Source: Clostridia bacterium (lineage in GTDB: Bacteria > Bacillota > Clostridia > UMGS1883 > UMGS1540). Taken from it: DNA of 64,000 bases. The notes under the pieces were generated by a model. That model saw nothing but the letters and a program-made list of their open reading frames with translations, had not been told where the DNA came from and made no database searches. Below are positions 1-11,101 of this stretch, in pieces. The translations under genes and the position numbers were made by a program. Numbering within the stretch: position 1 is the first letter of the stretch; each line of letters starts with the position of its first letter. Where the stretch lies: NCBI GenBank assembly GCA_017620205.1, contig JAFZQX010000035.1, positions 1 to 64,000 of the forward strand, given 5' to 3'.

Positions 1-1
1 C

Positions 2-1216
2 AAAAAACTTATACCCCTCCCTGTTATGCTCTTGGAAAAGCGCAAGAGAAGAAACAAGATACTAAAGCGTATCGGTCTTGCCGTTGCCGCTTGCGCGGTT
101 ATCGGCGCTATATGCGCTGTTCCGTGGTTTATGAAGCTGCCGAAATATAACGCTGCAATGCAGCTTTACTATGACAAAAACTATCCGGAAGCTACATGGG
201 CATTCGCGGATCTTGGAAACTATAGAAACTCTGACGAAATGAAAGAGAAGTGCGAGCTTAGCTGGAGGAAAAGTTTGGCAGTTGTGGTGTCAAGCGGCGG
301 AACAGATGCATACAGCCGTGATTCATATTATATATCTTCCAATGGTACTGTTGAATATGTCAATTCCGGAACTGCAAATAAAGACTTAAACACTAATGAG
401 CATGGGCAAATTGTGTCCATTGCAGCATCTAAACATGATTCTCTATATGCCTTGTATGAAGATGGGTATGTAGCAAATGCAAAAGAAAACAATGGTATAG
501 AAGATGATTCGGGATGGCATGACATCGTACAAATTTCCAGAATTTTCAACTCTACAAATATAGCATTAAGGGCTGATGGAAGAATATTGTACGGAAATGT
601 TGATGGGACAAGAGCTTTTAAGAACAATTACTATCGAGAACTGACTGATGATGATTACAGGGAGTGGAGTGATGACTGGCTGACAGAGACTTCTACATGG
701 ACAGATATCGTGTCATTTGATTGCTATGCAACAGTCAGCTCGGGGGATGCCAACGTCCTGGTTGCGGCAATTGTTGGTGTGAAATCTGACGGTACATTAT
801 GCGCTGTATTTCATGAAGATTATACTTATTCAAATAAACCCTCGTCAACACAATATGAAACAATTAGCAATTATAAAGATATGCTTGATAAATTTTATGA
901 TGTAAATAGTGTATATGTCAGCAGAGATGAAGTTGCGGCAATTACAAATCATAACACAATTATAACACTTAGAGATGGTAGAATTACAGAATATGAAAAT
1001 AAAGATAATATCATAAAACTAACGGAAGCCAATTTAAAATCCAATGGTGATGTATTATATGAAGACAATACTGTTATAAAAGATGCCGTATATATTGAAG
1101 ATGGTTATATTGTTACACGAGCCGGTACTGTGTATCAGTTACAGTATCGTAACACTCCATTAAATATGAATGTTAAGGCAATAGTTTATGATGAATGGGT
1201 AGAAAGGATGGAATAG
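2..1216 (+). CDS. TIR-family-like membrane protein, C-terminal part (cut by window edge)
   Basis: The reading frame is open to the left edge, so the gene probably starts outside the window; the first ATG is at 26. What is visible begins with a basic stretch and one membrane segment (about residues 15-37 from that ATG). A TPR-like segment follows with the pattern 'A..L...K.Y.EA...F..LG.YRNS'. The rest is a beta-rich region with short 'WTDIVSF' and 'GVKSDGTL' units that recall RCC1-type repeats. The next gene has the same membrane plus 'YAEKL..EGKYVEAIEIY' layout preceded by a zinc ribbon and a TIR domain. I therefore infer that the missing N-terminus is zinc ribbon plus TIR. The first ~270 bases are clearly more GC-rich than the remainder. 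It ends 2 bases before the next start, so the two genes form one transcription unit. Function unknown; signalling or defence is inference. Confidence 0.6.
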   Translation, partial: KKLIPLPVMLLEKRKRRNKILKRIGLAVAACAVIGAICAVPWFMKLPKYNAAMQLYYDKNYPEATWAFADLGNYRNSDEMKEKCELSWRKSLAVVVSSGGTDAYSRDSYYISSNGTVEYVNSGTANKDLNTNEHGQIVSIAASKHDSLYALYEDGYVANAKENNGIEDDSGWHDIVQISRIFNSTNIALRADGRILYGNVDGTRAFKNNYYRELTDDDYREWSDDWLTETSTWTDIVSFDCYATVSSGDANVLVAAIVGVKSDGTLCAVFHEDYTYSNKPSSTQYETISNYKDMLDKFYDVNSVYVSRDEVAAITNHNTIITLRDGRITEYENKDNIIKLTEANLKSNGDVLYEDNTVIKDAVYIEDGYIVTRAGTVYQLQYRNTPLNMNVKAIVYDEWVERME

Positions 1217-1218
1217 TA

Positions 1219-3117
1219 ATGAATTGTTCTATCTGCGGTGGAAGATTAAAACGTGACAATGATTTGTATGTTTGTGAAAACTGTGGTCACAAGCAGCATT
1301 TAGCATCATTTTTTGAGGAAGCAGAAGTATTTATTTGTTATGTAGAAAATGACGAATATGGGCGGCGAACAAAAGACAGTATAATTGCACAAGAAATATA
1401 TAATAGATTAAAAGATAATAATATCAAATGCTTTTACCAAAGAGCATTTGAATCGGCGTCGGAAAGGGAAAACAATAAAAATGTAAATGAAACAGCTATA
1501 CAAAAATCAAAAGTCATCATTGTTTTAGCAACATCAAACCACAATTTTAAAAAATTATTAGATAGTTATACAGAATACTTTTGTGGTAAGACAATTATAC
1601 CTGTATATTCAGGATTAAATGCTGCTGATATTCCGGAAGCTCTTGGAGCTTTGCAAGCAATGGACTATGACATAATTGGTGCCGTTGATACATTGACAAA
1701 GAGCATTTTGCAGCTTTTGGGAAGGGAAAATGAAATAAATATTTCACGTCTTGTAAACAGCACGTTCAAAAAAAGGAGAAAAATAGCTATATTAAGTATA
1801 ACCAGTCTGTTGGCTATGGCTATTGCTGCAGCAGCGTATTTTACCTTTTGTACACCATATGTTTTAAAGAGCAAAAAATACAGTTATGCAGAAAAACTTG
1901 TTTCCGAAGGCAAATATGTTGAAGCCATTGAGATATATTCAGTTGTTGATGATTATAAAAATTCAAAAAATGAGCTTCAGAGTATTTATAATAAGTATGA
2001 TGGTTATTATATGAACGAAGAACAAACTATATGTTTGTTTCTGAACATTGACCGCAATCATAATTCTGAAATAAAATTAATCAAAGCATCAGAAGATGGC
2101 AATATCAGTTTTGATACTAATGTGCAAATTGATGGATCGTTTGTCACTTTTGATTTTAAAGATACCAATAATACTGCCGGCACCGGAAGTATCAAATTGT
2201 CCGACGAGGGTGTGCAACTCAATGCAAAAACAACCGATACGAGTGATTTCAGTATTGGAGAAATTAATATTCTATTTAAATTTGAAAACAAATCTGATTC
2301 ACCTATAGTATCGTCATTTAGTGCGAATGACATTACAGGTTGGTTAAAAAATATGATAACAGACGGAGAACTCAAGAAAAAAGGGTATGAGCTTACTCTT
2401 AAAACAATAAATGATGACAATTTAATATATGTATGCGGAAAATACAATGAGGATTATGACTATTATACCGTTAAGGACACTACTGTAGATGTTATGATAT
2501 TTAACCGTGATATATCGAAAGAAGATATTATAGGAAATCTAGAACCGGGGAACAAAATAATTTTTGGTGTTTATGCGCCTGCTAAACTTGTTATCCCCGA
2601 TAGGATTGGGCAGTTAACTCAACCTTTTATAGAGAATGATATACTATTTGTTCCAAATAAAATATTTTATGAACTTGATCGTCGTATACCATACACCGGG
2701 ATTTTTTCATCTATAAATATTCAAAATCCGAGTAGCATTGATGAATCATATGCAAGTATTACTGATGACACTCCTGTTGGAATAATATCAAAAACTGTTG
2801 GTAAGAAGAATTGGGAGAATATTATAAAATATCAATTCATAAATCCCATAGTATATAATGTTGCCAAACAAAAATATGGGGATAGTTTTATGAAAATGGA
2901 TACAGAAGTAACCTTGTATATAGAAAATGAAACCGATAGCGATTTCCTTGTTTCTTATTATCTGAAAGAAAAAAAACTTGCCGTTTTTTATAGAATTAAA
3001 AAGACAGATGGTACGGTAACATTCGTATCAGAATGTCCATATGTTCAAGAGGATAAGACAATTGTTAATGAAAATGCCGAACCACGATTACATATGATAC
3101 AGGACACACAGCCGTAG
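1219..3117 (+). CDS. zinc-ribbon / TIR-domain / transmembrane protein
   Basis: The ATG at 1219 is chosen because AGAAAGGA sits 10 bases upstream; an earlier ATG at 1195 has no such site and would overlap the previous gene. About 632 aa. Residues 1-25 form a zinc ribbon (C3, C6, C19, C22). Residues ~36-165 look like a bacterial TIR_2-type domain ('VFICYVENDEYG', 'KVIIVLATSN'). A membrane segment lies at ~179-201. After it comes a TPR-like unit ('YAEKLVSEGKYVEAIEIY', 'DDYKNSKNEL') and a long beta-rich outer part without recognisable family. TIR domains in bacteria often hydrolyse NAD or act as scaffolds; whether a catalytic Glu is kept cannot be judged here. It lies next to a transposase and a putative defence operon and has AT-rich codon use. 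Zinc ribbon-TIR-TM proteins are common in Clostridia, but their role is not established. Confidence 0.75.
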   Translation: MNCSICGGRLKRDNDLYVCENCGHKQHLASFFEEAEVFICYVENDEYGRRTKDSIIAQEIYNRLKDNNIKCFYQRAFESASERENNKNVNETAIQKSKVIIVLATSNHNFKKLLDSYTEYFCGKTIIPVYSGLNAADIPEALGALQAMDYDIIGAVDTLTKSILQLLGRENEINISRLVNSTFKKRRKIAILSITSLLAMAIAAAAYFTFCTPYVLKSKKYSYAEKLVSEGKYVEAIEIYSVVDDYKNSKNELQSIYNKYDGYYMNEEQTICLFLNIDRNHNSEIKLIKASEDGNISFDTNVQIDGSFVTFDFKDTNNTAGTGSIKLSDEGVQLNAKTTDTSDFSIGEINILFKFENKSDSPIVSSFSANDITGWLKNMITDGELKKKGYELTLKTINDDNLIYVCGKYNEDYDYYTVKDTTVDVMIFNRDISKEDIIGNLEPGNKIIFGVYAPAKLVIPDRIGQLTQPFIENDILFVPNKIFYELDRRIPYTGIFSSINIQNPSSIDESYASITDDTPVGIISKTVGKKNWENIIKYQFINPIVYNVAKQKYGDSFMKMDTEVTLYIENETDSDFLVSYYLKEKKLAVFYRIKKTDGTVTFVSECPYVQEDKTIVNENAEPRLHMIQDTQP

Positions 3118-3130
3118 CATAAGAATAGCC

Positions 3131-3245
3131 ACGGACAAAAGGGGACGTACACAAATTGTCAACTTTTTGGTTGACATAATACGGACAACGGACAACGGAC
3201 AAAAGGGGACGTACACAAATTGTCAACTTTTTGGTTGACATAATA
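3131..3245. repeat. two 51-base direct repeats at left end of the transposase unit
   Basis: The segments 3131-3181 and 3195-3245 are identical as far as I can read and are separated by short CGGACAA-type repeats. Each contains the motif GGGGACGTACAC and a TTGTCAAC/GTTGACA hairpin. They match, in inverted orientation, the repeated right end of the element, which supports a role as the transposase's substrate. Confidence 0.75.
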
Positions 3246-3282
3246 TAACAGATGTGATACAATTCGGTTGAGGAGTGGTAAA

Positions 3283-4020
3283 ATGTCGAGATTAGCGAGA
3301 CAATACAGCGAAACCGGATTGTATCATATTTTTTTCAGAGGTCAAAACAGGCAACACATCTTTGAGGAAGATGAAGACTATAAAAAAATGCTTGAAATAC
3401 TGTCTGATTTGAAGCGGGAAATGGGATTTGAATTATATGTGTATTGCCTTATGAGCAATCACGTACATTTATTAATAAAAGAAAAAGAAACAGGACAGAT
3501 TTCGCTGATAATGAAACGGCTTTTGACGAAATACGTAAGACTATATAATTATAAATATCAAAGAACAGGCTCGCTTATTGCAAACAGATATAAAAGCAAG
3601 CCAATAGAAACAGATGAATATTTTTTGCCGTTGGTAAGGTATATTCATCAAAACCCTGTCAGAGCAGGACTTATGCATGATTTGGCTAAATATCCGTGGA
3701 GCAGTTACAGTCAATATATAAAAAACGATAATAAAATAGTTGATACAGAATTTGTATTAACAATGATGTCGCCAAAAGAATTTAAAAAGTTTCACAAAGA
3801 AACCGAAAAAGAGATTTTTGTTGTCGATGACAGATTAAAGATTACGGACGAGGGAGTCCGCAGGGAGATAAAAAAGAAGTACAGCGTTGAGCCGAAACAA
3901 ATAGCGGAGCTTGATAAAGAAGCGCGGAATATTGTTTTAAGAGAACTGAAAGAGAGATTTTCTATAAGACAGATTGAGCGAGTGACGGGGATATCAAGAG
4001 GGGTAATATACAAAAGTTGA
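3283..4020 (+). CDS. REP-associated tyrosine transposase (Y1/HUH family)
   Basis: About 245 aa. The ATG at 3283 follows GAGGAGTGG; an in-frame TTG at 3268 lies before that site and is less likely. The HUH motif is visible as 'SNHVHLL' near residue 64, after the typical opening 'TGLYHIFFRGQNRQ.IF'. The candidate nucleophilic tyrosine is in 'LLTKYVRLYNYKY', and the block 'GSLIANRYKS...LVRYIHQNPVRAGL' is typical of the TnpA_REP branch of the IS200/IS605 superfamily. The C-terminus adds a helix-turn-helix ('RFSIRQIERVTGISRGVIYKS'), as in many clostridial members. These enzymes cut and join single-stranded DNA at palindromic REP sequences. The gene looks intact. Confidence 0.9.
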   Translation: MSRLARQYSETGLYHIFFRGQNRQHIFEEDEDYKKMLEILSDLKREMGFELYVYCLMSNHVHLLIKEKETGQISLIMKRLLTKYVRLYNYKYQRTGSLIANRYKSKPIETDEYFLPLVRYIHQNPVRAGLMHDLAKYPWSSYSQYIKNDNKIVDTEFVLTMMSPKEFKKFHKETEKEIFVVDDRLKITDEGVRREIKKKYSVEPKQIAELDKEARNIVLRELKERFSIRQIERVTGISRGVIYKS

Positions 4021-4153
4021 CAAAACGTGTACGTCCCCTTTTGTCCCGATTGAGCGAGTGACGGGGATATCAAGAGGGGTAATATACAAAAGTTGACAAA
4101 ACGTGTACGTCCCCTTTTGTCCCGTCCCCTTTTGTCCCCGTCCCCTTTTGTCC
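3972..4153. repeat. tandem 76-base duplication of the transposase 3' end plus GTCCCCTTTTGTCC repeats
   Basis: The segment from the last 16 codons of the transposase through GTCCCCTTTTGTCCCG is repeated head to tail (3972-4047, 4048-4123). Two further GTCCCCTTTTGTCC copies follow up to 4153. This looks like slippage or recombination at the element's right end. Confidence 0.8.
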
Positions 4154-4325
4154 TAAAACGCTGTCTCTGCACATAGATAGCTTGCTACATACAAGACAGT
4201 ATGACAGCGACAAGTTTAGTTTGATTTTTACTTCGTACGGAGAATTTGAAATAAAGTATTCAGTAATGTGTGCGGAATGGAAAAAACCTGTTGAAGGTAA
4301 ATTTCAGATAAAAGCAGAGTATTGA
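4152..4325 (+). pseudogene. C-terminal remnant of an unidentified gene behind the transposase unit
   Basis: Directly after the last GTCCCCTTTTGTCC copy a frame is open for 57 codons and ends at TGA 4323-4325. It reads as ordinary protein ('FSLIFTSYGEFEIKYSV', 'EWKKPVEGKFQIKAEY') but has no start codon or ribosome binding site. The most direct reading is the tail of a gene broken by insertion or by repeat-mediated rearrangement. The second TIR gene upstream is a possible parent because it ends abruptly just before the left repeats, but the join is not proved. Confidence 0.35.
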
Positions 4326-4773
4326 AACAATAAACAGTTATGAGTATGAGGTGAAAGTTCATTTCGCCATGATGGATATCACTAAAAATGGACAAGGAAG
4401 TGCCGCAAATGGGGACAAATCCATTCTCGGCTTGAGATATTCTTTGGCTAAAGACTGCCGCGGTAGCATAAAATTACCGACAAATCAAGGGTAAAATGCA
4501 CGGTTCAAAGAAGCCGCCCTTGACACCAACTTATCGTTTTACTGTATGAAAGTTAAGGGCTTCAGCCCCATAAAACACTCACTATGCTTCGTTCTGAAAA
4601 AGTTTGCAAATAGATTTGCGTATAAATCTTGCCACTACCTGAACGACTCCTTTAAACCTTGTATCTTCATTTTATCAGAATGCAATTACTGTTACTTGGC
4701 AAGTTCACTAGGCGGATGGATATTTATTCGATCGTTAGGATTATCTATTTTAATTTATCAAAAAAATAAAGCA
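4326..4773. other. intergenic stretch, no gene recognised
   Basis: No start with a ribosome binding site and no convincing protein frame was found on either strand. A small hairpin (GGGCTTCAGCCCC, near 4558-4570) is visible. The mixed composition suggests debris from mobile elements, but I do not recognise a family. Confidence 0.4.
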
Positions 4774-5943
4774 TTATTTTAAAACTAATAATATGGATAA
4801 TATTGCAAACATCAATGCAACAACTCCAAGGTAAATATTTTGCATTATGCGACTTTCGTTTTTTAACTTTTCAATTTCCTTTTTTAATTCGTTTATAGCG
4901 CCATGTAATGCGTTGGCAGGAATATAATCTATTATTTTACTCTTTCCCTGATAATCACCTTCATATAGTGGAGCGGGTTCAAGTAACTTGTTAAACTCAA
5001 TTGTAGCATAATGCATCCCTCGTTTCAAATGCACAGCCCTATTGGACGTGTTAAACAAAAGGCAAAATAATGTCCCATTAAATCCAGGATCAATTTGTGG
5101 ACCGTTTGATAAAATTATACCTTGACAGAACAATCCTACTGTCAATCCAAATTTCCCGATTATATCTCTAGGAATACGAGCGCTTTCTTTACAAGAAACT
5201 ATTGCATAGTCATATGGTTCAATTGTTAAAAAAGACGACGAATTTGTTAGGTGATTGATTTTGCCATCATAGTAGTATTCGTCGCCTAAAAGCAAATCAT
5301 ACGATGCTCCTTTTACACTTGATTCAGTTGCATTATCTAAAAGCATTCCGCACCTTAGCATCAGTTTTATGATTCTTCCGGATAGACCGCCGCCGATATT
5401 TGTCGTGTGAACCAACACCTCAATTAATTCTATTATATCTTCTAAATTATTTGAGGTACTTTTTATAACGTAGTTAGCTTTGTTAGAATATGTACGGTCA
5501 TTGCAATTCTGCAACATTAATGCCTTATATTTTTCCTTGTTGTATTTTTCTCTCTTTTTGTATCTTTCTAATATTAAATCATCGTTTGCATCAATAAAGA
5601 AGCAAGTACAATCAAAATTTTTCTCGTTCAATAAAGTCTGGACCGACTCGGCGGATAAAATCAAAATGGGAGTTTTATTTTTTGACATAGTAGCATCATA
5701 GTCTAATTTTAGAATCCCATAATAATGATTTAGGTATGTGGTATTAATTAGAAAATCATCATTTTCAATGTGCTTTTCAAATGTGTCTTTTCCACAATAA
5801 TTATAATTAAAATCATCTTTTCTTTGCGGACGAGTAGTTACAGCATCCACTATGATATAATTACCTGTTTTTTGGAGTTCTTTTGCGATAGTACTTTTCC
5901 CTGCACATGACAAGCCAGTAAGAATTATAGGTTTAATGCTCAT
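4774..5943 (-). CDS. guanylate-kinase-like / dCTP-deaminase-like fusion with C-terminal membrane anchor
   Basis: About 389 aa, last gene of the five-gene operon. The ATG at 5943 is chosen because AAAGGAG lies 7 bases upstream; it overlaps the methyltransferase stop by 11 bases. Residues ~4-175 resemble guanylate kinase: P-loop 'GLSCAGKST' (10-18), 'TTRPQR' (36-41) and a 'YYGI' segment as in GMP-binding regions. Residues ~195-335 resemble the trimeric dCTP deaminase/dUTPase fold ('GASYDLLLGDEYYYDG', 'QIDPGFNGTLFCLLFN', 'LKRGMHYATIEFNKL'). The Glu usually found before the 'N' in dCTP deaminase is Leu here, and the usual RSS.AR box reads 'GKFGLTVG', so classical deamination is doubtful. A short coiled coil (~350-368) and one membrane segment (~369-388) close the protein. 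It probably senses, phosphorylates or depletes a nucleotide at the membrane; that is inference. Confidence 0.75.
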   Translation of the reverse strand: MSIKPIILTGLSCAGKSTIAKELQKTGNYIIVDAVTTRPQRKDDFNYNYCGKDTFEKHIENDDFLINTTYLNHYYGILKLDYDATMSKNKTPILILSAESVQTLLNEKNFDCTCFFIDANDDLILERYKKREKYNKEKYKALMLQNCNDRTYSNKANYVIKSTSNNLEDIIELIEVLVHTTNIGGGLSGRIIKLMLRCGMLLDNATESSVKGASYDLLLGDEYYYDGKINHLTNSSSFLTIEPYDYAIVSCKESARIPRDIIGKFGLTVGLFCQGIILSNGPQIDPGFNGTLFCLLFNTSNRAVHLKRGMHYATIEFNKLLEPAPLYEGDYQGKSKIIDYIPANALHGAINELKKEIEKLKNESRIMQNIYLGVVALMFAILSILLVLK

Positions 5944-7144
5944 CGCTTTTCTCCTTTCTGAAAACATAAATTTTTTCATTGATCAAGCTTGCCCATTGTA
6001 TGCTAATGGTTCTTCGGTTGCTTGGTATGTATCTTTGAAAGTCCTGTACCAGCTTTAATCCGTATTGCTCATATGACAAAACCATTTGGTCGATTACCCT
6101 TTTTCTATCGTCGCTTTCTGCATACTCCGGTAAAATTATACATAAAAAACCATTGTTTTTTAATATTTTGCTTAAGTGACAGTTTATGCGCTTCATCGAG
6201 TCTTCATATTCGTTTAACGTCTCTTTTCTTGAACGTCTGCACCTTGCGCCTATCTCTTGCGAAACATATTCGTTGAATGCTTCGTTAAAAAAACACAAAG
6301 ACATTCTTTGGGATTTAACATAATCTATCATACGAGGATATGGAGGAGAAGTAATTATTAAATCAACTTTTGTTATGGGTGTATTTATAACAGATGTATT
6401 AAAAATACGATCTTCTTTTAGAGTTTTTTTATAAAACCCCACATACAAAGGCGAAGTGTTTTTTAGATGTATCATGATATCCTCAAATAATACATTGACC
6501 CTTGATTTATAAAAATCAAATACATCCTTTTCTTTATATTCGTCCATCTTTGGTTTTACATTATCTGCAATATAAGCCCAGCCCTTATTCTGACTTGATA
6601 GAGTTGTTAAGATACTACTTATTACATACTTCAAAATACCTTTAACAAAAACATTTTCAACACTGTTATGGCAATGTATCAGGTAGCACAATTTGTTAAA
6701 GGTTTGTATTTCATACCAACCCATTAATTCCTTTTGTAGCTCACTTATGTTATTTCTATAATCGTAATTTTCATCATAATTTACACATAGTTCAAGAAGT
6801 TGCTGCTTTATATCTGCGTGTTTTAATGAGGGATTTAATAAATCATATATTTTCTCACATACATTTGTCGCAACCGGATTGATATCACAAGAAAACGGAA
6901 AACGTTCTAATAAGAGAGATTGAATAAAAGTAGTACCAATCCCTCCGAATGGATCTAAAACAATATCACCTTTATTAGATAGAATTTCTATAAGAGTATA
7001 CGGAATTTCTGGAATAAAAGTTGCTGGATAAGAGTAGTGTTTTCTGCAATCAAATGGGAACAGAGATTCCGGGGAGTAATTAATATTAAAATCAAAGTTC
7101 CAGTTTACGCTATTTAGTTTATTCTTGATATCTTTTAATTCCAT
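5933..7144 (-). CDS. DNA methyltransferase (N4-cytosine/N6-adenine type, SPPY motif)
   Basis: About 403 aa. The ATG at 7144 is 9 bases after AAGGAGG; an ATG at 7150 is only 3 bases from it. The SAM-binding motif is 'LDPFGGIGTT' near residues 60-69, followed by 'CDINPVA'. The catalytic motif IV is 'TSPPYPRMIDYV' in the second half. This order (DPF.G first, SPPY late) is that of amino-methyltransferases acting on DNA, with a long middle region that may read the target. No restriction endonuclease is next to it. It overlaps the HD gene upstream and the fusion gene downstream, so translation is coupled. Its role could be self-marking in a defence system or one step in base modification. Confidence 0.8.
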   Translation of the reverse strand: MELKDIKNKLNSVNWNFDFNINYSPESLFPFDCRKHYSYPATFIPEIPYTLIEILSNKGDIVLDPFGGIGTTFIQSLLLERFPFSCDINPVATNVCEKIYDLLNPSLKHADIKQQLLELCVNYDENYDYRNNISELQKELMGWYEIQTFNKLCYLIHCHNSVENVFVKGILKYVISSILTTLSSQNKGWAYIADNVKPKMDEYKEKDVFDFYKSRVNVLFEDIMIHLKNTSPLYVGFYKKTLKEDRIFNTSVINTPITKVDLIITSPPYPRMIDYVKSQRMSLCFFNEAFNEYVSQEIGARCRRSRKETLNEYEDSMKRINCHLSKILKNNGFLCIILPEYAESDDRKRVIDQMVLSYEQYGLKLVQDFQRYIPSNRRTISIQWASLINEKIYVFRKEKSDEH

Positions 7145-8768
7145 ACTCATCCACCTCCTTGTATAATTCTACTTCCTCAACATTCATATTAAAGGTTTTT
7201 TCAAAGAAATCTATTATGAGGACCTTTAAATTCTTACGATATCGTTTTAAGGGTTCTTTGGCATATTTTAACCCGTAGGGTTCGTTTTTTAAAAAGATAC
7301 CTAACAGCAACTCTTTTGAAGATTTTCCTATTGTGGTAAGCTCATTTTCATTTTCAAAACAAACGCTTAATTGACGTTCAGTTTTGTTTACGTCTAAAAT
7401 GGGATGTATTCCCAGACGCACTCGCTGAAAATCTTTATTATTTCTTATATAACATTCAAGTTCATTTTCTATTATTATTCTTTTTGAATATTCGAGGAAG
7501 CTATCATAGCTTGTTATATCAGATGTTTTTATAATCATAACACAATCATAAAGATCTCCAGTCATAAGTCTTGATATGATTTGAGAAGGATTATATTTAA
7601 TATTTGTAATTTTATACAACTTGTTGTCACTTATTTCAAATTTCATATTTCGATCTTCTATGCAAATCTGTCCTAAAGGAGAAATAGTATATTTGAATGA
7701 ATTTGACAAAATGATTTGTTTTGAGTTTCCGCTTTTGCCTTTATCTTTTACATATGATAACAATTCAATCGATTCTACATATGATTTTAGAGCTTCTTTT
7801 TGTTCATCATTATTTAGTTGAAGTATTTTTTCTATTTTCGTTTTGTTAAGGCCTTTTTGAAGAAGAACTCTTTTATTCAACCATATTTCTTTGTGCATAC
7901 ATAATGTCTGTAGCAATTCAAAGTCCGTGTAATACCATTTTATATCGGAAGATAAGTTGTTCTTTTGCGATATGCCATCAAACACTATGTCCATAGCTTC
8001 TGTTAACATATATTTTCCAGAAAATTCCTGGGGGTTTAATAATAGAAATTTGTATACTTTCTTTCTAGTATCAAACCAAATATTAAGATAGCGTTCAGCG
8101 CTTTTTTTAAATACTATCCTATCACCATCTAAATACATTGCTTTTGCAAGTTCTATAGGTGCTCCTAGTGGAAAAGGAATTCCCATATGATAGGCCATCC
8201 TAAATACATTATCTATATTATCAAGATCTATTGTATCGCTAATAAGCTTGCTAAAATAATGTTTTCCGGAAATTATAGACGAAACGGTTTTTTTTTGTTC
8301 TGAATTAAGGATGCTATTTAATCCACGTAGCTTCCCGAAATATATAGGTTCATAAGGGGAAGAGTATCCATGAGCACCTTTTCCAGCAGATGTAACATCT
8401 ACAAACACATTTTCTAAGCCTTTTTCGGGAATAAATCCTTGTTTTTCCATTATATATTCATAAGAATGCCCAAAAGGTCCGTTTGCAACATCATGTAAAA
8501 GCGCTGAAACAATTAATAGTTCTTGTTTCTCTTTATATTCAGAGTACTTTACGTAATTATATTTAATATTCTGAGATGCCAAAAAAGCAGTTCCTACAGC
8601 ATGCTCAAATCTATTTGTGTTTGAGCTACCAGTTATGCATAAAGAATTTATATTACATAATCTCACTTCGCGCAGCCTTTGCATCTCTGGAGTCATAAGG
8701 CAACGTAAAATAAGTGGTGAAAATTCAATTTTTCCATACATAGGGTCATATATATACAACTCAATCAC
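7119..8768 (-). CDS. HD-domain phosphohydrolase (dNTPase/SAMHD1-like)
   Basis: About 549 aa. The likely metal ligands are H56 ('RFEHAVGT'), H92-D93 ('LLHDVANGPFGH') and an Asp around 178-183 ('SDTIDLDNID'). The layout 'R.R.VRLCN....SSNTNRFEHAVGT' is that of COG1078/SAMHD1-like enzymes, which remove triphosphate from (d)NTPs. The usual GH after LLHD is replaced by VAN. The C-terminal ~350 residues are not recognised. The start is ambiguous: GTG at 8768 touches the GGGGG site, while a TTG at 8759 is spaced 8 bases from it and fits better. It overlaps the FAD gene by a few bases. Nucleotide hydrolysis is expected from the family; a defence role through dNTP depletion is inference. Confidence 0.8.
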   Translation of the reverse strand: MIELYIYDPMYGKIEFSPLILRCLMTPEMQRLREVRLCNINSLCITGSSNTNRFEHAVGTAFLASQNIKYNYVKYSEYKEKQELLIVSALLHDVANGPFGHSYEYIMEKQGFIPEKGLENVFVDVTSAGKGAHGYSSPYEPIYFGKLRGLNSILNSEQKKTVSSIISGKHYFSKLISDTIDLDNIDNVFRMAYHMGIPFPLGAPIELAKAMYLDGDRIVFKKSAERYLNIWFDTRKKVYKFLLLNPQEFSGKYMLTEAMDIVFDGISQKNNLSSDIKWYYTDFELLQTLCMHKEIWLNKRVLLQKGLNKTKIEKILQLNNDEQKEALKSYVESIELLSYVKDKGKSGNSKQIILSNSFKYTISPLGQICIEDRNMKFEISDNKLYKITNIKYNPSQIISRLMTGDLYDCVMIIKTSDITSYDSFLEYSKRIIIENELECYIRNNKDFQRVRLGIHPILDVNKTERQLSVCFENENELTTIGKSSKELLLGIFLKNEPYGLKYAKEPLKRYRKNLKVLIIDFFEKTFNMNVEEVELYKEVDEYGIKRYQE

Positions 8769-10071
8769 CCCCTATAATACTACCACAGTATATACCCGAG
8801 CATAATGATTGTAAAATTCCTCTGAATTTTCCGGTAGCCGACCCAACAACAAAAATATTAGGCGCAACTTGAAAATCGTTGTTCAGGGTTATGTTATTTA
8901 ATAGTTTTAGCTCAGGTGAAACAAGCACAATGTCTTCGCTTGATAAACATAAAGCTTTAATTAAAACATTGTCAATGAACTCAATAATGTCAGAATTAGT
9001 GTTTTCATTGAACATATCTCGAATGTTACCTGTTTGAGTAAATATATATTTTTCATCGCAATAAAACAGTGATATTTTGTTATTTAAGTAATCATTAAAA
9101 TTTTGTTTGACTGGAACTCCGTGAAAAACACTTTTATACTTGTTTATAAATTCTTCGTATGTCGAAAGATTATTTGATTTAAATATTATAGCTAAATTAG
9201 TCTTGTCGGTTAAATCATCTTCATCGGCATAACCTTCAAGGAAAGACATATTGTCTGTTGAGTAAGAAATTACATGTCCGTTTTTACAAACACAATAAGT
9301 TCTCCCAGCCTTATATTTTAACTTTAAATCGCCGTGGCAATCTAAAAATTTAATAATCTTATCCGTAGGAACAATAGCTCTAACTCCTAGCTCATATGTT
9401 GGTGGAGCGTCAAATGTATATTCACTACAAGGCAAAAGATTAAAATTCAAATTGCCAGTAGCAATGATAATTTTTCTTACTTTATACTTTTTTGTTATAT
9501 TTCCTATGTTGACAAAGATATAATATACTTCATCAAAAGCGCACTTTTCAATTTTTATAACAGTAGCTTCAAAATGTATTTTTAGACCAGCATCTTGTGC
9601 ACGTTTTACTTGCGAATCAATATATTGAAAATATACGCTTTTTTTAAATTCATAGACATCATAATATTTATAATCAATTTCGAAATGTTTAAAATAAGAA
9701 GACATACTAGTTATCTTTTCTTCGGACACATCAATTTTTTGCAGTTGTAATGCTTCGTTTAACGCTTCAACTTGTGTGGTCATAAATGATTTTAAATTAT
9801 CTTTGGATCCCCAAAAATATTCCAAACCACTACCTGCAGGAAAGCCACTTATTTTGCCACAACTAAAGCGTGAGGCCCCACCCAATCCGTAAACGACATT
9901 ACAGGGAGTGCAACGAACACAGGTAGATGATTCGTGCATCTTACAACCACTAATATTTAAGCCTTTTTCAAAGCATATGGAATTTTGAAGTGTATCTGCT
10001 CCTAATGAGGATAGTGCGCCAACGCCCGCAGGACCTAGTCCAATTATGCAAACGTCATATGTGTTAGACAT
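8761..10071 (-). CDS. FAD-dependent oxidoreductase, COG2509-like
   Basis: 436 aa. The dinucleotide fold 'DVCIIGLGPAGVGALSSL' starts at residue 6. A cysteine cluster follows ('SGCKMHESSTCVRCTPC') running into 'VYGLGGASRFSCGKI', which matches the C..C..C plus GGAG.FSDGK region of COG2509 FAD dehydrogenases. The C-terminus has the FAD-binding 'APNIFVVGSATG' segment. Start ATG 10071 has GAGGAAG 9 bases upstream and overlaps the preceding stop by 8 bases. The substrate is unknown. Finding a redox flavoprotein with DNA and nucleotide enzymes is unusual and may point to base modification or redox sensing. Confidence 0.8.
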   Translation of the reverse strand: MSNTYDVCIIGLGPAGVGALSSLGADTLQNSICFEKGLNISGCKMHESSTCVRCTPCNVVYGLGGASRFSCGKISGFPAGSGLEYFWGSKDNLKSFMTTQVEALNEALQLQKIDVSEEKITSMSSYFKHFEIDYKYYDVYEFKKSVYFQYIDSQVKRAQDAGLKIHFEATVIKIEKCAFDEVYYIFVNIGNITKKYKVRKIIIATGNLNFNLLPCSEYTFDAPPTYELGVRAIVPTDKIIKFLDCHGDLKLKYKAGRTYCVCKNGHVISYSTDNMSFLEGYADEDDLTDKTNLAIIFKSNNLSTYEEFINKYKSVFHGVPVKQNFNDYLNNKISLFYCDEKYIFTQTGNIRDMFNENTNSDIIEFIDNVLIKALCLSSEDIVLVSPELKLLNNITLNNDFQVAPNIFVVGSATGKFRGILQSLCSGIYCGSIIGGD

Positions 10072-10513
10072 AAATAATCACTTCCTCATTTAATCTTGTT
10101 TGAGAGTTTGTTTCTATTGCTTTTGTAAATATTCTTTCCGTACCATCAGGGCTTTTTAGTACGATTGTTAAAAATATTTGTTTTGTTTTTGGTGAAGAGA
10201 AATACAGTGTAAACGGTTCTCCAGATTTAGTTGCAATATTATATCCGCCAATATATACAGTAATGTTTTCTTTAGATTTCACACCGTTCGATTCTACTAA
10301 TCTAATTGACCCATTGAATTCGTACGATAGTGGGAGTTCAGTGGTCTCAATCAAGTAACCGATAATAGGAGTTTTATGAAAAAGATTTGGAAATAATAAG
10401 GCTAAAGATGTTATAACGCTTATCAACAAAAATATAATAGAAGCATTCCTGCCAAAATTTGCAAACAAACGTCTAAAAAATCTCTTGCAATGTAACATAA
10501 ATAATTTATACAT
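10064..10513 (-). CDS. small membrane-anchored protein, first gene of the five-gene operon
   Basis: 149 aa, no family recognised. A basic N-terminus (~1-22) is followed by one membrane segment (~24-45, 'ASIIFLLISVITSLALLFPNLF'). A beta-rich domain of ~100 residues then ends in 'LNEEVIIYV'. The start is clear: TAGGAG 6 bases before ATG 10513. Topology is probably N-in with the beta domain outside. It is translationally linked to the oxidoreductase by an 8-base overlap, so it belongs to the same complex or pathway. Confidence 0.7.
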   Translation of the reverse strand: MYKLFMLHCKRFFRRLFANFGRNASIIFLLISVITSLALLFPNLFHKTPIIGYLIETTELPLSYEFNGSIRLVESNGVKSKENITVYIGGYNIATKSGEPFTLYFSSPKTKQIFLTIVLKSPDGTERIFTKAIETNSQTRLNEEVIIYV

Positions 10514-10627
10514 ATTTTTCTCCTACGAACAAATAAATATATGATTAAACAAATTTAATGACTGCCTATATATGACAATCTATGTTTCGCAAATTTTTAA
10601 GAGAATATCTAATTTACTGGTTTGTTT

Positions 10628-10667
10628 TTACCGAGTTTAGCTAATGTGCATGCGCTAATTTCGGTAA
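10628..10667 (-). promoter_or_regulatory. leader hairpin upstream of the five-gene operon
   Basis: TTACCGA and TCGGTAA form the base and TTAGC/GCTAA the upper stem of an imperfect hairpin in the predicted ~245-base leader between the promoter and the first gene. It is not followed by a T-run, so it is not a plain terminator. It could be a regulatory RNA structure or a protein-binding palindrome. Confidence 0.4.
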
Positions 10668-10767
10668 CATGAAGCTAATCCATATTGTTCATATTTTTTC
10701 TAATAAACGCCACAATGGTTTATAACATAACTGCATAAAAAACATCAAAAAAATTATTATATTATAA

Positions 10768-10796
10768 ATTATACCATAAAGTTCCCCTAAATACAA
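10768..10796 (-). promoter_or_regulatory. sigma-A-type promoter of the five-gene operon
   Basis: Read on the minus strand, TTGTAT (-35, 10796-10791) and TATAAT (-10, 10773-10768) are separated by exactly 17 bases. Transcription would begin near 10760 and leave a long leader before ATG 10513. Confidence 0.6.
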
Positions 10797-11101
10797 TATT
10801 TTGCAAAAAAAACTGTATATGTAAAAGGGAATACAGAATTAAAAAAACAAACAGCAATAAAACTAATTATGTTAATAAAGTAAAATATAACTACTTATAT
10901 TTTGAAAAAATTAATGTTTACTATTAAAACTAGGCAGTTAAGATACAACAAAAATCCGTATCCCATATCAATCGGTACAGGGTTCGGATTTCTGCCGTAT
11001 GGTGCGCAGACAGCAGCCATATTCGTTTATTCAAAAACGATTACCATTCCCCAAACACCGCCCGCGACAAAAAGTTCGTATTTGTAACGGTTTGCTCCAC
11101 C

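Follow-up and report, generated by a model that had tools for sequence, protein, structure and literature searches.

The window analysed here, a stretch of 64,000 nucleotides from a Clostridia bacterium (contig JAFZQX010000035.1, positions 1 to 64,000), carries at positions 4774-10513 a minus-strand operon of five open reading frames (ORFs). These encode a one-pass membrane protein (gene 1), an FAD oxidoreductase (gene 2), a predicted HD-domain triphosphohydrolase (gene 3), a DNA methyltransferase (gene 4) and a kinase-like/dUTPase-like fusion protein (gene 5). All five are present as the initial annotation had described them, and the ORFs, their overlaps and the Pfam, phmmer and profile matches agree with the parts it had named. 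The cassette is rare, strictly conserved and common to distantly related bacteria and archaea. Our preferred but tentative reading, which rests on sequence comparison, is that it is one horizontally moving unit and most likely a membrane-associated anti-phage defence system, with a nucleotide sensor, an HD deoxynucleoside triphosphate (dNTP) hydrolase as effector and a methyltransferase for self-marking. We rate the cassette as new as a gene system that is built of known folds; its role is a prediction.

The strongest evidence for a single unit comes from its recurrence. An alignment of the HD proteins of the window and of Rhizobium etli was used as query in one scan of ~85,000 species genomes, and 13 further loci were recovered. 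Genes for the flavoprotein, the HD protein, the methyltransferase and the kinase-DCD fusion occurred together, overlapping or nearly so, in 12 of 12 sufficiently complete loci (L049, whose contig stops inside the HD gene, was left out). Since the HD protein was the sole query, this recurrence is not due to chance, and the possibility that the genes rarely co-occur was not borne out. Gene order was constant in complete loci except L042, where the flavoprotein gene follows the fusion gene; in L043, two overlapping ORFs encode kinase and DCD separately, and the fusion is frame-broken in L047. The host genomes belong to Bacillota, Mycoplasmatota, Spirochaetota, Thermotogota, Actinomycetota and Hydrogenedentota as well as to the archaeal ANME-1, Thermoplasmatota and Bathyarchaeota, and most are metagenome-assembled genomes, so that individual host assignments may be binning errors. 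Trees of the HD protein, methyltransferase, fusion and flavoprotein were largely congruent, which indicates joint transfer of the genes. Between the Thermoplasmatota and Spirochaetota copies, identity is 86% in both the HD protein and the methyltransferase, so either the unit moves whole or one of these bins is incorrect. Together with gene order and overlap that persist across phyla and domains, these results uphold the earlier proposal that the five genes form one functional unit. The best plasmid relative of the HD protein (34% identity, 2e-38) lies on pA of R. etli CIAT 652, where a flavoprotein gene (frameshifted in the record), HD gene, methyltransferase gene and stand-alone kinase gene follow the order of the window (L035). 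Viral contigs gave no matches when scanned with single fusion, FAD or HD proteins, and alignment queries did yield loci there.

The HD domain of gene 3 (Pfam, E 3e-6) has SAMHD1 as its nearest relative (phmmer, 9e-13 to 1e-10). Its metal ligands H56, H92, D93 and D183, together with R53 and H101, are kept in 20 of the 20 sequences compared, and E104 of the H101/E104 pair is replaced by Q in three (L045, L050 and L051). Judged by these residues, the site is intact and the protein is a predicted dNTP triphosphohydrolase. The methyltransferase-linked HD proteins formed a single clade (support 100/100) relative to eight chromosomal COG1078-type controls, and none of 14 such chromosomal controls had the methyltransferase gene within 1.5 kb. 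HD matches in Natrinema, Listeria, Staphylococcus and Priestia were set aside as distant COG1078-type genes, and no cassette was found near that of Natrinema. The cassette protein shares its HD fold and catalytic layout with defence dGTPases (SpdGTPase and similar), but its clade is nearer to SAMHD1/COG1078 than to dGTP triphosphohydrolase, and it has a methyltransferase partner wherever the contig permits. That partner, the product of gene 4, belongs to the N6_N4-type DNA methylases and carries DPFGGIGTT at residues 66-74 and TSPPY at 267-271. The S-adenosylmethionine (SAM)-binding motif DPFxGxGT and the catalytic (S/D/N)PPY motif are found across the family, with SPTY in L045. A methyltransferase match in R. 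anhuiense belongs to a different system (two methyltransferases, an ATPase, a phospholipase D-type protein and a nuclease) and was rejected.

Gene 5 combines a guanylate-kinase fold (residues 16-191) with a DCD/dUTPase fold (200-345) and has at its C-terminus a helix (361-400) containing a hydrophobic transmembrane (TM) segment. We aligned the DCD domain to E. coli Dcd and Dut and compared the kinase with guanylate kinase (Gmk); the alignments were computed, and the roles of the numbered residues of these enzymes are general enzyme knowledge. The initial annotation had called the DCD domain dCTP-deaminase-like and had pointed out that dCTP deaminases protect bacteria by draining dNTPs. Dcd residues S111, R115 and E138 (E. 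coli numbering) are replaced in 13 of 13 members, by V (N in L050), C (V in L051) and L (M in L051), respectively. Their loss in every member makes deamination very unlikely; dCTP deaminase activity was rejected, and a draining of dCTP by this route is not supported. The base-pocket Asn (N84) and catalytic Asp (D90) of dUTPase are retained as invariant N292 and D297, and the phosphate-binding RSS/RSG motif is gone, with (T/S)V(G/S)LFC in its place. Nearest among solved structures are 9ln0/9ln3 (deposited as thermostable dUTPase) and 8y1w. Compared with the archaeal-type dUTPase P45 (9ln0/9ln3) and E. coli Dut, the domain shares the fold and the absence of Glu at the deaminase position, and it keeps the base-pocket Asn and Asp of Dut; it differs from both in being without RSS/RSG and in being joined to a kinase and a TM helix. 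It is also the best conserved part of the fusion (48-86% identity to that of the window).

In the kinase domain, the P-loop and the phosphate-binding arginines of TTRxxR are kept, with variation in a few members (P-loop GSGKM in L050). The guanine-contacting acids (Glu of FLE, Asp of DIDWQG) are lost, and the NCBIfam guanylate kinase model scored 62 against a cut-off of 160. GMP specificity, implied by the earlier label GMP-kinase-like, was rejected because both of these acids are lost. Gene 5 thus looks like a membrane-tethered protein in which a kinase of altered specificity is combined with a uracil-nucleotide pocket that is likewise altered. Among 390 other genomes of the class, a search with the fusion protein gave only ordinary kinases and one degenerate gene, a frame-broken stand-alone DCD-TM relative without the kinase (L003:1453-2112). 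The DCD-TM module therefore occurs outside the cassette.

Gene 1 has a basic N-terminus, a single TM helix (~24-47) and a 7-strand beta-sandwich (AlphaFold2 (AF2) model, pLDDT 83) that, by the positive-inside rule, would face the cell exterior. Its family alignment has nine members, and fold matches of the sandwich to immunoglobulin-, transthyretin- and starch-binding-like domains were all weak (E > 1e-3). The gene is missing from the ANME-1/Actinomycetota loci L046-L048, from R. etli and from L051. In R. etli, its place is taken by a protein of 611 aa that carries a nucleoside phosphorylase domain at its C-terminus (L035:6957-8792) and directly abuts the flavoprotein. Nucleoside phosphorylase domains are of a type seen in defence effectors. 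This replacement, along with the fusion of a binding-type domain to a TM helix, would fit a second-messenger scheme in which kinase and flavoenzyme make a signal nucleotide, the dUTPase-like/TM protein binds it and damages the membrane, and the HD enzyme degrades the signal. We consider this very improbable, given that no nucleotidyltransferase or cyclase was found at any locus and that a single C-terminal helix would be a weak effector.

Gene 2 is a COG2509/VP0956-type FAD oxidoreductase (profile match to 3nlc, VP0956, E 9.5e-17) and resembles these dehydrogenases in sequence profile and in a Cys-rich motif. Cysteines C43, C51 and C57 are invariant across 13 sequences; the cluster is not present in the R. 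etli and L051 flavoproteins. Chromosomal COG2509 copies occur in 127 of 391 genomes of the class, and gene 2 is set apart from them by a full-length identity of only 22-28%. The FAD protein was a poor probe, its relatives being common chromosomal genes, and the one neighbourhood of a chromosomal relative that was read (L016) held no cassette. A divergent, second-type flavoprotein (~21% to that of the window) was observed at L042:13952-15292, located after the fusion gene and not before the HD gene.

With the exception of the methyltransferase and gene 1, the parts look like housekeeping enzymes of nucleotide or redox metabolism. This would fit a cassette for metabolism or salvage (nucleotide repair, house-cleaning) whose horizontal movement is incidental. 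However, the residues for base specificity and for deaminase catalysis are lost, a DNA methyltransferase always lies next to the other genes, the spread across domains is patchy and the organism has a separate guanylate-kinase-like gene; we therefore hold this explanation to be quite improbable.

Under the defence reading, the core would be the HD triphosphohydrolase and the SPPY-type methyltransferase, joined by the P-loop kinase and the flavoprotein, with gene 1 and the tail of the fusion tying the cassette to the membrane. At the membrane, the kinase-dUTPase-like fusion may bind and process an unusual nucleotide, of uracil type or modified by a phage, and thereby sense infection. The HD enzyme would be the effector that hydrolyses dNTPs, and the methyltransferase, perhaps with the flavoenzyme in a redox step, may mark or inspect self DNA and in this way keep the effector inactive when there is no infection. 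Precedents exist for two of these steps. In Clover, an HD dGTPase is gated by nucleotide signals (PMC12265719), and in DndF a P-loop kinase domain has been proposed as a sensor of phage-modified nucleotides (PMC10853773).

The genomic neighbours at several independent loci are in line with the defence-island setting proposed for the window. On a viral contig found by alignment scan (L051), the complete FAD-HD-methyltransferase-kinase-DCD-TM set forms one operon with the type I restriction-modification genes hsdR-hsdS-hsdM, with a 4-base overlap between hsdM and the FAD gene. L041 adjoins a type I restriction-modification system, L042 adjoins AbiD and Schlafen-AlbA_2, L046 adjoins AbiEi/AbiEii, and L040 adjoins a relaxase and an integrase (by reading). 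A related cassette in a prophage (L056) has a ParE-type toxin and phage tail genes nearby. The two loci joined to type I genes, and the whole-length alignment of gene 4 with a type II methyltransferase profile (PADLOC MTase_II, E 3e-24), would also suit a restriction-modification accessory or BREX-like unit. In such a unit the methyltransferase would be the modification half, and kinase and phosphohydrolase would act as in Pgl/BREX, blocking unmodified DNA at the membrane. This appears improbable, as the cassette is without a nuclease, an AAA+ or helicase protein and the PglZ/BrxC family, and as its PADLOC matches are to methyltransferase models only.

Several observations weigh against the defence reading, and it needs to be interpreted with caution. 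Apart from the generic methyltransferase, no component was recognised by PADLOC as a specific defence protein. Defence genes flank ~1/3 of the loci with usable flanks, a share that was not set against a background rate and so counts as support, not proof; at the remaining ~2/3 (e.g. L040, L043, L045, L047, L050, L035) no recognised defence gene was found. The cassette is also rare: the HD protein had no relative among 397 other genomes of the phylum, leaving the window's own genome as 1 of 398. Finally, a system made up purely of sensor and effector would not be expected to have so many synthetic-looking enzymes (flavoprotein, kinase and methyltransferase, with AIRS, PP-loop-like or SAM enzymes in relatives).

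Because biosynthetic-looking partners recur, a modified-nucleotide or DNA-hypermodification pathway stays a serious rival and is the main one, although we judge it rather unlikely. Here, the methyltransferase and flavoenzyme (or the AIRS, PP-loop-like and SAM enzymes) would make a modified base, the kinase would convert the unusual nucleotide to its diphosphate, and competing canonical or uracil nucleotides would be cleared by the HD and dUTPase-like domains. Parallels are DatZ/MazZ in 2-aminoadenine phages and gp1/gp56 in T4. A kinase without guanine contacts, the retained Asn and Asp of the dUTPase pocket, and an HD-methyltransferase core with interchangeable partners (AIRS-like in L052, PP-loop-ATPase-like in L055, SAM methyltransferase in L056) are all consistent with this pathway. 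On the other hand, no polymerase, base synthase or glycosyltransferase is found, membrane anchoring would be unexpected, the hosts are cellular rather than lytic phages, and an annotated phage collection scanned with the HD protein gave distant matches only. A T4-like base substitution in phage DNA was rejected as first choice since polymerase and synthase are missing.

The initial annotation could match the combination to no named system, and the libraries and literature searched give none either: PADLOC, NCBIfam, Pfam, PHROGs and the papers searched held no matching named system, within a search that left subscription journals, most preprints and newer DefenseFinder models outside. Papers on BREX diversity, Dnd and DefensePredictor, checked by key terms, do not describe the cassette. 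Clover (CloA dGTPase and CloB nucleotidyltransferase; PMC12265719) shares with it an HD dNTPase with metal site, H/E dyad and predicted effector role, and Clover's partner is proposed to regulate its HD effector, a likeness to the partnered HD protein here. The partners differ, being a methyltransferase, a kinase-dUTPase-like fusion and a flavoprotein, and no ORF for a Pol-beta nucleotidyltransferase (CloB) was found in the window operon or in homologous cassettes. Gene 5 resembles AvcD of dCTP deaminase defence in that one protein holds a kinase-like domain and, after it, a pyrimidine-nucleotide domain. The deaminase of AvcD is of a different fold; unlike AvcID and related deaminase toxin-antitoxin defence, gene 5 has a DCD/dUTPase fold and not a cytidine deaminase (CDA)-fold zinc deaminase. 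BREX/Pgl systems combine a methyltransferase, a phospho-hydrolysing enzyme and a kinase without a nuclease, and the cassette is alike in this composition. However, neither the PglZ/BrxZ phosphatase nor the BrxC/PglY ATPase was found in it with Pfam and PADLOC, and no BREX family is present. The cassette is thus set apart from Clover, BREX, AvcD and dCTP-deaminase defence, since for each of these a defining feature was looked for and not found in it. If it is a defence system, it would join DNA methylation self-recognition and dNTP hydrolysis, which are separately known, through a membrane-bound nucleotide sensor, and would belong to a small group of such systems that bacteria and archaea share. 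Should it instead prove to be a modification pathway, a DNA base or signal nucleotide not yet known would be implied. In both cases, the five genes are compact and clonable (~5.7 kb), and the enzymes are individually testable.

Alignment scans of viral contigs also gave three kinds of HD-methyltransferase pair with other partners. In L052:5996-11501 an AIRS/ThiL-like enzyme comes after the pair, and two proteins named by eye with no Pfam match come before it, one HIT-like and the other a terpene-cyclase-like membrane protein. L055:6228-12366 is an HD-methyltransferase operon with a PP-loop-ATPase-like protein (a label that rests on reading an SGGRDS motif), a membrane protein, a P-loop kinase and a second methyltransferase, and may be a different modification or defence system. 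In L056 and L057 the pair stands with a SAM methyltransferase, and a P-loop kinase and a membrane protein lie on the opposite strand. These two cassettes (L056:568-6611 and L057) are near-identical, lie in prophages and are close to tail gene D; the ParE-type toxin of L056 is part of a pair, and L057 carries an Mrr-like nuclease (by eye). It is conceivable, and more doubtful than the defence role itself, that all belong to an undescribed superfamily of interchangeable cassettes in bacteria and archaea, founded on a dedicated SAMHD1-like HD clade that is inseparable from one SPPY methyltransferase family. Added to this core would be a membrane protein, a phosphotransferase (guanylate-kinase-like, AAA-type or ThiL/AIRS-like) and an enzyme whose chemistry varies. 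The version in the window would make or sense a non-canonical uracil-type nucleotide at the membrane and link DNA methylation status to dNTP destruction.

Consecutive ORFs of the cassette, as listed, overlap by 8, 8, 32 and 47 bases. Judging from family alignments and Shine-Dalgarno context, three of the genes probably start slightly later (Table 1), with AAGGAGG at the methyltransferase start and AAAGGAG at the fusion start. With these starts adopted, the cassette genes overlap by 0-26 bases or directly touch.

Table 1 Features of the cassette and its surroundings in the window.
Feature	Position	Strand	Basis and remarks
Gene 1, one-pass membrane protein, 149 aa	10064..10513	-	ORF list, family alignment, AF2
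Gene 2, FAD oxidoreductase, COG2509-like, 436 aa	8761..10071	-	Profile match to 3nlc
Gene 3, SAMHD1/COG1078-like HD triphosphohydrolase (predicted), 549 aa as listed	7119..8768	-	Pfam, phmmer; likely start TTG 8759
Gene 4, SPPY-type amino-DNA methyltransferase, 405 aa as listed	5933..7150	-	Motifs, PADLOC; likely start ATG 7144
Gene 5, guanylate-kinase fold + dUTPase/DCD fold + C-terminal helix, 401 aa as listed	4774..5979	-	Likely start ATG 5943
AT-rich island with cassette, TIR-like membrane protein and REP-associated transposase	1..11100	.	GC profile, Pfam/NCBIfam

The AT-rich setting noted earlier for the cassette was recovered as well, with a guanine-plus-cytosine (GC) content of 30-36% in the island vs 43-50% for most of the remaining window, a transposase associated with repetitive extragenic palindromic (REP) sequences, and a TIR match that is weak (E 1e-4, below the Pfam cut-off). 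An Rfam search of the island gave no RNA match, and promoter patterns were no more frequent than expected by chance. The TIR match falls in the second of two overlapping plus-strand genes at 26-3117, whose product resembles a zinc ribbon over an N-terminal stretch and also contains a TM helix and a long additional region; the pair is possibly a separate TIR system. The gene for the REP-associated tyrosine transposase lies at 3268-4020 (within 3120-4150). Both of its flanks carry the motif GTGTACGTCCCCTTTTGTCC or its reverse complement, and the gene's own tail is partly duplicated at ~4050-4125.

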